A stretch of DNA of 64,000 nucleotides from a bacterium (GTDB lineage: Bacteria > Myxococcota_A > UBA9160 > UBA4427): the NCBI GenBank assembly GCA_024742285.1, contig JANSYR010000003.1, positions 248,001-312,000 of the forward strand, given 5' to 3'. A program made the position numbers and the translations under genes. The first letter of the stretch is position 1. Each line of letters begins with the position of its first letter. The notes beneath the pieces were generated by a model. That model was given only the letters and a program-made list of their open reading frames with translations. It was not told where the DNA came from and did no database searches. This document shows, piece by piece, positions 40,901 to 58,070 of this stretch.

Positions 40901-43141
40901 TCAATCCGCGCCGGTCTCCGACGCGCGCGGCGCGCTTACGAAGATCGGGCTCGACCACGCGTTGCCTCCGTCGGCCTGACGGATGCGGACGTAGTGGAAC
41001 TCGCCGGGCCGCAGCGCCGGGATCTTCCGTTCGAGATCCACGCTGAGGGGCGTCTCCGGCTCGAGGGCGGCGATGCGGCCGCTGCGGACGAGCTCGATCC
41101 GGTCGATCGTGTCGGTCGCCTCGTATCGGATTCGAAGCGTGTGCTCGCGGTCGGCGGTCGGGAGCGTGCCGCCCATCGGGACGTCGTCGATCGAGACCTC
41201 GAGGAAGGGCCGGATGCCGTTCGTCGCAAACGTGTGTCGCCGGAGGAGGGCGTCCTTCACGGCGCCGCGATCGAGACGTTCGACGAAGAGTCCCGCGAGA
41301 CCGCCGTGACCGCCGGCGATCTGCGGCAAGCCGGGGTGGCCGTCGTGGGAGTCGCCGCTGCCGATGAAGCCGTAGCGGTAGCCTGCGCGGAGGGCGTCGA
41401 GGACGAACCAGCCGGGCATCCCGCCCCGAACCGGGACCGGCATCTCCATGGACTCGCTCTGGCCGTGGACCGAGGCGATCTCGGTGACGGGTTCGAGCGC
41501 CGGGTCCGGTCGGTAGCGCCAGTTGACCGCGACGGGGTCGCCGGCGGAGTGATGGGCGAAGGTCAGGGCGTTGCGGCCGCGGAGCGCGTTCCAGAGCTCG
41601 TCGGGGCGGTCGGTGGCGTCGTCGACCGCGGAGAAGATCTCCGGGCGCGGCTCGCTGCCCGCCGGATCGAAGTAGAGGACGTGGCGGTGGCCGTGGAGCC
41701 AGCTGGTCCACTCGTAGCCCGGGATCGTGACGAAGCGATCGAGCTCCTCGGCGGCGTCGGTCGTGTCGAAGACGCCGCGCGCGGCCTCCGGGTCGAGCGC
41801 CAGCGGACGCATCCCCCAGTGGTCGTGGTCGGTCAGGGCGACCACGTCGAGACGCGCGACCTCCCGGGCGTACCGGAAATAGTCCTCCGGGCGGCCCGTT
41901 CCGTCGGAGAGGCCGGTGTGGCCGTGGAGGTCCCCCCAGACGAGCCGGCGCGGCCCACGTCGCGCGACGATCGGGGGCAGGGTCGCTGCGAAGTCCGCGA
42001 GGCGACCCGTGCCGCGGACTTCGAGACGGAGCACGCCCTCGCCGGAGACCTTGCCGAGCGAGACGCTCGCGCCCCCGTCCTGCCAGTCCGGCACGTCGAT
42101 CTCTCGCGGCGGACCGAATGCGATCGTCGATTCCGGCAGGGGTCGGATCTCGAGCCCGACCCGCCCAGGGTCAGGCCCGATCGGAGGGGCGCCATCGGCG
42201 AGGCGGTCCGTCCGGTTGCCCTGCGCATCGACCAGTGACACGCGGACCGTGAGCGCGTCGCCCGGGGCGAGCTCCGAGGGTCCATGGGCGACGAGGCGCG
42301 CCGCGCGGCGTGCCGCGACGTCGAGGCGTGCTCCTTCGTCGGTGAAGCGGCGATAGCCGTCTCCGTCCGCGTCGACGGCGACCCCGATCTCCGCGTCCCG
42401 CTCCGCATAGCGGTCGATCTGCGCACCGAAGGGGCCGGCCCCGTAGACGAACCGGACCCGGTCCCCCTCGACCAACGGCCCACCTACGACTTCGAAGCCT
42501 GCGCCGGAAGCATCGGGGGCCAGTCGCGCGTCGCCGCGGACGACTTCGGCCACCGTGAAGCCCGGGGTCTCCCGATCGACGTGTTGTGCGGGGCTCCAGT
42601 CCCAGAAGGCCTCGGCGGCCAGGAAGAGGAGGCCGCCCTCGCTGACACCGAGGGGGCCGACCTCGAAGACGAGCTCGAAACGATGCGTCGTCGCCGCGGG
42701 GAGCACGGGCTTTGTCGAAGCTTCGGTCCGCCGCCACGGGCGACCGCCTTCCCGGGAGGTCGGGCCGACCGGGTCGACCCGCTCGAGCCAGACGCGGCCC
42801 CCGCCGTCTCCGGGATGGGCCTCGGCGGCCTGCTCGGCGAGCAGCAGGAGGTGGGTCTCGAGCTGGGCGTTCGGCGAGAGGGTGGGGTGCCGACTGGACC
42901 AGTCTTCGGGCAGCTCGAACCACGGGGCCGCCTCGAGGATCGGTGCTTCCCCTTCCTCCGGCTCCGGGGAAGCGGGGATCTGCGCGACGGGTTCTTCCCC
43001 GGCCTCGCATCCGGCGATCGCCAGCAGCAGGAGTCCCAGAAGGCCGTGCAGTCGGGACGCAATCTTCCAGCAGGAGCGGATTCCGAAGCCCCGGCGTCGG
43101 GGCGTGATCGCGAGCCGGTGTTCGTCCTTCCGTTTTCCCAC
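40901..43141 (-). CDS. DUF3604 lipoprotein, PHP-like metal-dependent phosphoesterase fold
   Basis: A 746-aa probable lipoprotein. A long basic n-region leads to a hydrophobic run with lipobox AIAGC. The first 390 residues are beta-rich with Asp-rich stretches such as DADGDGYRR. The C-terminal half has WGDLHGHTGLSDGTG (about residue 400) and VVALTDHDHWG, the H-x-H and D-H-D metal-binding motifs of DUF3604/PHP-type domains, then GSGDSHDGHPG and RRHTFATNG. Hydrolysis of a phosphoester or related bond is expected; the substrate is unknown. GTG 43141 is the only start giving the full signal. It converges with the chemoreceptor gene. Confidence 0.75.
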   Translation of the reverse strand: MGKRKDEHRLAITPRRRGFGIRSCWKIASRLHGLLGLLLLAIAGCEAGEEPVAQIPASPEPEEGEAPILEAAPWFELPEDWSSRHPTLSPNAQLETHLLLLAEQAAEAHPGDGGGRVWLERVDPVGPTSREGGRPWRRTEASTKPVLPAATTHRFELVFEVGPLGVSEGGLLFLAAEAFWDWSPAQHVDRETPGFTVAEVVRGDARLAPDASGAGFEVVGGPLVEGDRVRFVYGAGPFGAQIDRYAERDAEIGVAVDADGDGYRRFTDEGARLDVAARRAARLVAHGPSELAPGDALTVRVSLVDAQGNRTDRLADGAPPIGPDPGRVGLEIRPLPESTIAFGPPREIDVPDWQDGGASVSLGKVSGEGVLRLEVRGTGRLADFAATLPPIVARRGPRRLVWGDLHGHTGLSDGTGRPEDYFRYAREVARLDVVALTDHDHWGMRPLALDPEAARGVFDTTDAAEELDRFVTIPGYEWTSWLHGHRHVLYFDPAGSEPRPEIFSAVDDATDRPDELWNALRGRNALTFAHHSAGDPVAVNWRYRPDPALEPVTEIASVHGQSESMEMPVPVRGGMPGWFVLDALRAGYRYGFIGSGDSHDGHPGLPQIAGGHGGLAGLFVERLDRGAVKDALLRRHTFATNGIRPFLEVSIDDVPMGGTLPTADREHTLRIRYEATDTIDRIELVRSGRIAALEPETPLSVDLERKIPALRPGEFHYVRIRQADGGNAWSSPIFVSAPRASETGAD

Positions 43142-56580: not shown

Positions 56581-57357
56581 ATGAGTTCGTTGCGCATGCA
56601 TGTCCAGCCGGTCCTCGGCGAGCCGACGCTGATGATGGCGTTCGAAGGTTGGAACGACGCGTGCGAGTCGGCTTCGTCGGCGGTCCGTTTCGTCGATGCC
56701 CATCTTCGCGGCGTGCCCCTCGCGGACATCGACCCCGACGACTACTACGACTTCACGGTCCGACGTCCGCAGGTTCACTACGCGACCGGACACTCCGGCC
56801 CGATCTCCTGGCCGTCGAGCGAGTTCCGCTACGGCGTGACCGAAGACGGACTCGAGCTGATCACCGGCCTCGGCGTCGAACCGCACATGCGCTGGCGCAG
56901 CTACTGCGAGTCGATCGTCGAGCTCGCCGTCGACATGGGCGTCCAGCGCTGTCTCCTGCTGGGCGCGTATCTCGCCGACGTCGTCTACTCCCAGCCCGTC
57001 ACGGTCTCGGGCTTCGCCAGCGACGCCTCGCTCCTCGAGCGCTTCGAGGTCGAGCCGACCAGCTACGAGGGGCCGACCGGGATCGTCGGTGTGCTCGCGA
57101 ACGCGCTGATCGAAGAGGGCGTCGAAGTGCTCTCCCTCTGGGCCGGACTCCCCCACTACATCACCGCGACCCCGAACCCGCGCGGTGCCCTCGCGCTCCT
57201 GCGCAAGGTCTCGCAGTACCTCGAGGTCCCCTTCGATCTCCAGAAGATGCGGGAGGACGCCCTCCGCTTCGAAGAGGACGTCTCGCGCGTCGTCGCCTCC
57301 GACGAAGAGCTCTCCGACTACGTCAAGGAGCTGAAGCGGCGCGAGTTCGCCCAATAG
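56581..57357 (+). CDS. PAC2 family protein
   Basis: A 258-aa cytoplasmic protein resembling the proteasome assembly chaperone 2 fold found in archaea, actinobacteria and some other bacteria. PTLMMAFEGWNDACESASSA at the start, DPDDYYDFTVRRPQV, CLLLGAYLADVVYSQPV (with the conserved Gly-Ala loop) and GLPHYITATPNPRGALALL are the recurring PAC2 family patterns. Bacterial function is not established. ATG 56581 opens the family-like start; the frame is open from 56485. No proteasome or Pup genes are in view. It ends before the inverted-repeat element. Confidence 0.75.
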   Translation: MSSLRMHVQPVLGEPTLMMAFEGWNDACESASSAVRFVDAHLRGVPLADIDPDDYYDFTVRRPQVHYATGHSGPISWPSSEFRYGVTEDGLELITGLGVEPHMRWRSYCESIVELAVDMGVQRCLLLGAYLADVVYSQPVTVSGFASDASLLERFEVEPTSYEGPTGIVGVLANALIEEGVEVLSLWAGLPHYITATPNPRGALALLRKVSQYLEVPFDLQKMREDALRFEEDVSRVVASDEELSDYVKELKRREFAQ

Positions 57358-57417
57358 TCGCTCGTCTCGAACGCGGCCTTTCGGATGCCGTGCCGGGGCT
57401 GGGCCGGCGCGCGCTCC

Positions 57418-57770
57418 GATCCTCACTTTCTCTCGGCCTGTCGGCGGGGGGCGTGATCGTTCGGGCGTGGTGCACCAGGCCTCGCGGTTTTTTTGCGGTC
57501 TGAGCGCGCGCCGGCCGAGCCTCGGGCGGGGTGCTCGAGGGGCCACGTCCGAGCTCGCTCGGGTCGGTTGCGACTGCCGTGCTTGTTAGGCGGGGCTGCG
57601 CGGCGCGGCGTCCGATCGAAATCGTGCGAGCGCACCACGTGCGCCTCTACGCACATCGTCCCGAGCGGCCGGGGCGGCGGGCGCCTGGACCGCAATAAAA
57701 CCGCGAGGCGCGATGCACGGCCTCCAGTGCATCATGCGGTCCGCCGGCGCGCCGAGGGAAAGTGAGGATC
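57418..57770. repeat. 353-base inverted-repeat element, MITE-like
   Basis: The outer 20 bases at each end are inverted copies (GATCCTCACTTTC...CTCGGC, 19 of 20 identical). The arms stay collinear without gaps for about 95 bases: left arm 57418-57512, right arm 57770-57676. A second strongly matching block inside the arms carries CCTCGCGG, a run of T, then GCGGTC (20 of 21). The centre holds further hairpins, for example GCGCAC/GTGCGC at 57630-57644. No transposase is encoded. It lies between two convergent genes, whereas other convergent junctions here are 60 bases or less. It may be a non-autonomous mobile element, a structured RNA or a bidirectional terminator. No certain target duplication is visible. 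Confidence 0.7.
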
Positions 57771-57818
57771 CAGCCGCCCGCCGACCCGGCCGCCTGGCAC
57801 GGCCTGCGAACGCGCGCG

Positions 57819-58070
57819 TCAGCCGAGTTCGATACTTTCGCCGATGAGCATGATCGGGATGCTGTCGTCGACGATGTAGAGGACGCGGCCGTCTTCGCGC
57901 AGCAGGCCTTCCTCGATCACCGTCTCGACCTTCGCGCCGCCGCGGTTGCGCAGGCGCCCCGCTTCGATCTCGGCGTTGAGCGGCGCGAGGACCGCGGCCT
58001 CGGCGCGGGCCACGGGCTGGCGCGTCTCGGGGCAGCAGAGGATGTCGAGGAGTTGGTCGTCGATCGGCAT
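57819..58070 (-). CDS. Trm112 family protein
   Basis: An 83-aa protein of the Trm112/YcaR family. LLDILCCPETRQPV at the start and REDGRVLYIVDDSIPIML at the end are the two conserved blocks. Eukaryotic Trm112 activates methyltransferases; bacterial homologues are small, often zinc-ribbon-like, and functionally unclear. Here only the N-terminal CC pair is present and no second CxxC is seen, so metal binding is uncertain. It is convergent with the PAC2 gene across the inverted-repeat element. Confidence 0.8.
   Translation of the reverse strand: MPIDDQLLDILCCPETRQPVARAEAAVLAPLNAEIEAGRLRNRGGAKVETVIEEGLLREDGRVLYIVDDSIPIMLIGESIELG

Follow-up and report, generated by a model that had tools for sequence, protein, structure and literature searches.

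The locus examined here raises the question of what a conspicuous inverted repeat is doing between two convergent genes, and how it came to be there. Within the window (the whole 64,000-nucleotide stretch of DNA that was analysed), the left neighbour of the repeat is a PAC2-family gene (56596–57357, + strand, start codon approximate), identified by its gene call and by a Pfam match (PF09754, E 8.2e-48). The right neighbour is a Trm112-family gene (57819–58070, − strand; Pfam PF03966, E 7.3e-06, with a score of 26.2 bits, above the cut-off of 22), and is a conserved neighbour in relatives. The spacer from the PAC2-family stop (57357) to the convergent Trm112-family stop (57819) measures 461 bases. 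As an earlier, sequence-only reading of this DNA had noticed, it is the only large convergent gap in the window, where the six other convergent spacers span −4 to 60 bases. Self-inverted alignment revealed an imperfect, loop-free palindrome of 447 bases (57372–57818, centre near 57595) that fills nearly the whole spacer, with its ends close to the two stop codons. When the spacer was aligned with its own reverse complement, the arms were 75% identical in aligned columns; a separate alignment with gaps counted gave 68% (E 2.3e-27). The self-inverted local score was 152, whereas 2000 Markov shuffles averaged 29.9 (sd 6.1) and reached 64 at most; the score of 152 is the highest in the 1.25 Mb of the source genome (G000; other G-numbers denote genomes of the same order) that was scanned. 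All genome-wide comparisons of palindromes and T-runs cover this 1.25 Mb, with genes taken from a simple codon-usage caller. Folding of both strands, a check that the sequence-only reading had proposed, placed the predicted RNA structure of a 353-base core far below shuffles (z = −10.9 on + and −9.7 on −). An assembly artefact was ruled out on two grounds: a 25% difference between the arms, and the presence of the orthologue in a separate assembly, that of the congener G003. The inverted repeat is real, strong and single-copy, and is an imperfect palindrome.

That 353-base core (57418–57770) had been put forward as an undescribed element with 19/20 identical inverted tips, arms collinear for about 95 bases, and a T-run block shared by both arms. 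The two ends are inverted copies of one another (57421–57437 and 57751–57767), and the T-run block is present in each arm (57488–57494 on + and about 57694–57700 on −). The arms are likewise collinear, but over ~220 bases each and not 95. By contrast, 57418 and 57770 do not stand up as element ends: inverted identity runs outwards to 57372/57818 and, on the inner side, right up to the centre (near 57595), and the 353-base stretch is an inner part of the palindrome whose edges are ordinary by permutation. Identity is 81% across the 32 aligned columns furthest from the centre, on a par with the interior. When arm columns were permuted, one 19/20 window arose with P 0.62 and two with P 0.15, so windows of this kind are expected by chance because the arms are this similar. 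The tip is therefore not a special feature, the arms being generally as well conserved, and a discrete element with 20-base tips is ruled out both by the permutation and by the identity that continues beyond the tips. Defined terminal inverted repeats of the sort that mark a MITE were not found, the 20-base tips being no better kept than the arms.

Searches for further copies led to a single site and its orthologue. BLASTN of the source genome matched the palindrome site alone. A search of the order (80 genomes) found the orthologous site in G003 as its sole match in the other 79, together with a marginal 50-base match in G071. A three-arm profile run on nine congeneric genomes gave nothing convincing beyond the palindrome's own site and that in G003, and an exact search for the tip in GTDB r220 (84,980 species genomes) matched one contig and no second copy. 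The multiple copies that characterise a MITE were thus found neither in the genome, nor in the order, nor in the GTDB r220 tip scan, nor with the genus arm profile. A nucleotide similarity search gave no match to a related autonomous transposase element. The palindrome was also without a match in viral, plasmid and phage searches, and an origin from any of these was dropped. The sequence-only reading had itself held that finding no second copy and no empty site would argue against mobility; with no second copy and no clean empty site, the data argue against present mobility, and we found no evidence that the palindrome is currently mobile.

The history of the spacer was followed in congeners. 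G003 carries the same genes and the same spacer, lacking ~123 bases of the left arm; in a global alignment of the two spacers, the absent part corresponds to 57406–57528 (edges approximate), bracketed by the two halves of a local inverted repeat (57393–57419 / 57499–57525). At sites where the right arms of G000 and G003 differ, the left arm of G000 sides equally with each (9 vs 9), and the whole palindrome therefore predates the split of the two, with G003 having undergone a deletion. As the left arm was already there before the split, G003 was ruled out as an empty or half-built site. G004, which is nearly as close as G003 (PAC2 gene four-fold identity 0.64 vs 0.70), has a 103-base spacer unrelated to the palindrome. 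Across congeners, short spacers showed no homology to the palindrome beyond matches of 11–14 bases and lacked clean flanks from which an insertion point could be read; an 11-base word, GCTTGTTAGGC, that the G005 spacer shares with the palindrome spacer was too short for interpretation. An 8-base direct repeat, CGAACGCG, at 57368–57375 and 57807–57814 (shuffle P 0.02) could be a target duplication; it overlaps the arm ends, and G003 keeps only ACGCG.

To judge how fast the spacer changes, it was compared with other spacers of the same genome pair. Identity between G000 and G003 was 0.836, compared with about 0.79–0.86 for other well-aligned spacers (a small sample of 16), among them a 271-base convergent spacer at 0.817. 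Four-fold site identity in the pair was about 0.62, below the 0.84 of the palindrome spacer. Other spacers also exceed four-fold sites, so this conservation is a property of spacers in the pair and not of the palindrome spacer. Once control spacers had been compared, the idea that unusual conservation pointed to a function was dropped. On these alignments, the palindrome spacer evolves at an ordinary spacer rate. Base pairs retained between G000 and G003 numbered 58 against 51 expected (P 0.025), and there were four double changes in paired bases (P 0.06). The slight excess of retained pairs is a weak signal, which either selection or arm-to-arm correction could produce. We found no evidence for a special function or activity of the palindrome.

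The same spacer was examined across the order, through which the convergent PAC2–Trm112 pair is conserved. A Trm112-family gene adjoins PAC2 in 28 of the 30 loci examined, with spacers of 8–467 bases, often only 8–40. Four relatives (G011, G032, G039 and G054) carry strong palindromes in this very spacer (z 10–32). These are unrelated to one another and to that of G000, and each belongs to a multi-copy dispersed family with many matches in its own genome. Some of them also fill the spacer almost stop to stop, like the palindrome of G000. Counting relatives' spacers of at least 60 bases, 4 of 16 were strongly palindromic, a share that fell to 1 of 73 among background convergent spacers (P 0.003), whose genomes differ in repeat load; the excess at this locus is only a lead. 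A general palindromic habit of convergent spacers in G000 was ruled out (Mann-Whitney P 0.48). One could suppose that the PAC2–Trm112 spacer has been under a lasting demand for a large fold-back, with lineages recruiting unrelated palindromes as a repeatedly replaced two-way transcription insulator, an idea that we consider very improbable. If the recurrence at this locus survives a control for repeat load, it would offer a simple natural system for testing the selection of fold-back insulators by convergent genes.

The explanation that we favour, with moderate confidence, is an old palindromic insertion (fold-back, MITE-type) between convergent genes, of which the palindrome is the decayed relic in a single copy. 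A past insertion is likeliest because this very spacer holds multi-copy palindromic repeats of unrelated sequence in the four relatives; it thus repeatedly accepts such dispersed repeats, though the family of the G000 palindrome is otherwise unseen. From this we infer arrival by insertion. Palindromic fold-back DNA of the MITE type would have landed in a very short PAC2–Trm112 convergent spacer before the source species and its closest sampled congener diverged, and would afterwards have decayed, drifting like ordinary spacer. Transcripts from either gene would run into a large hairpin, making the palindrome a passive 3' boundary at most, a role that is possible. The MITE origin that the sequence-only reading had suggested is kept as a past insertion; neither a second copy, nor a clean empty site, nor a convincing target duplication was found. 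Several observations count against the relic: no search yielded a second copy or a recognisable family, the candidate target duplication overlaps with the ends of the arms and is not retained in G003, the 447 bases exceed the length of the relatives' palindromes, and the slight excess of retained pairs hints at constraint or arm-to-arm correction. An inverted duplication in place, in which template switching or fold-back repair made a reverse copy of ~220 bases of spacer, with later divergence and no mobile element involved, would suit a palindrome that is single-copy, has neither loop nor defined tips, and ends at coding regions. However, neither arm matches any congener spacer, related spacers are mostly far shorter than 220 bases, and the palindromes at the same place in four relatives are dispersed repeats; we regard such a duplication as unlikely.

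A role in transcription termination had also been suggested, on the grounds that the symmetry would present the same structure to transcription from either gene. The T7 tract of the left arm (57488–57494, + strand) lies 131 bases past the PAC2-family stop and is one of 6 T7 runs in the 1.25 Mb, both strands counted, while the TTTTATT tract of the right arm (57694–57700, − strand) lies ~118 bases past the Trm112-family stop and is one of 3. Read along the + strand, the T7 tract comes before the centre and the corresponding A-tract (57694–57700) after it, whereas a classical shared two-way terminator runs A-tract, hairpin, T-tract (PMC1852404). This order contradicts a bidirectional terminator built on one shared stem, and a single two-way terminator is unlikely from the arrangement of the tracts. 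A pair of terminators, one per arm, is possible and would fit the orientation of the tracts: the rare T-runs stand in the right sense, but the hairpins before them (−19.8 and −22.3 kcal/mol) match shuffles, 70% and 57% of which were as good (42–70% overall). Runs of at least 5 T after gene ends were more often sense than antisense (14 vs 4, P 0.015), and a consensus scan returned one site, a weak terminator-like sequence at 57714–57700 on the − strand. In E. coli, inverted repeats at gene ends are mostly parts of intrinsic terminators (PMC6060812), and by analogy a boundary role for the palindrome would be reasonable. It might be a selected boundary, that is, two homologous inverted intrinsic terminators (GC-rich hairpin plus T-tract) kept as a palindrome to stop convergent read-through. 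The rarity and sense orientation of the two tracts after each gene, the bias of T-runs past gene ends, the weak site on the − strand, the E. coli precedent and the retained pairs all speak for selection. Yet the hairpins are no better than shuffles, G003 has lost the left T-run with its surroundings, convergent spacers of G000 are not generally palindromic, and the one-stem version has its tracts reversed. Moreover, a higher conservation is reported for shared two-way terminators than for one-way terminators (PMC5381666), whereas that of this spacer is ordinary. On balance, selection for a boundary seems rather doubtful. A structured non-coding RNA or another specific element encoded in the spacer could account for the very stable predicted fold and for the stretch 57651–57720, in which 67 of 70 bases are identical between G000 and G003 (P 0.03, with no correction for the choice of window size). 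Against it, the whole window had no match to Rfam at gathering thresholds, leaving no known RNA family, and no promoter-like site was found in the spacer. The order search and the GTDB-wide tip scan placed the palindrome in two species only, and its overall conservation is ordinary. We judge such an element highly unlikely.

Set beside known systems, the palindrome resembles the palindromic MITE-type repeats of G011/G019, G032/G073, G039 and G054/G050 in folding back with little or no loop, in being intergenic and in occupying the same convergent spacer. It differs from those repeats, which are multi-copy and 90–180 bases long, in being a 447-base single copy of unrelated sequence, without demonstrable family, tips or target duplication. 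With bidirectional intrinsic terminators it shares an inverted repeat between two convergent stops and the presence of T-tracts; it departs from them in the + strand order of T-tract, centre and A-tract, and in its ordinary conservation. REP sequences are also extragenic palindromes for which the space between convergent genes is a frequent location (PMC1525189). However, they are 20–40 bases long and high in copy number (PMC3733652), and a REP sequence was ruled out by the 447-base length and single copy. Comparison thus takes the striking 'undescribed element' apart. Its edges turn out to be arbitrary and it occurs only once, and its unusual feature, a palindrome between convergent genes, is repeated in relatives by unrelated dispersed repeats.

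The dispersed repeats of the relatives vary in their placement. In G054 and G050, which belong to one genus, a palindromic repeat of ~100 bases (loci L164–L183 and L203) occurs in dozens of copies in the two genomes; 10 of the 19 classifiable sampled copies lay between convergent genes and one between divergent genes. The 182-base palindromic repeat of G011/G019 (L184–L202) spans genera of the family, with many copies in G019, and showed no bias towards convergent spacers. A 170-base palindromic repeat with many copies and a perfectly kept 28-base tip was found in G032/G073, often as inverted pairs roughly 30–180 bases apart, and looks like an active or recent family. On contig C10 of G039, two very strong palindromic spacers (near 41277 and 46627, scores 311 and 210; L268) lie ~5 kb apart and are possibly the ends of a mobile element. 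In the source genome itself, the second strongest palindrome of the scanned part (G000:C1:584647-584743, L121; 97 bases, score 129) sits in a 915-base tandem spacer.
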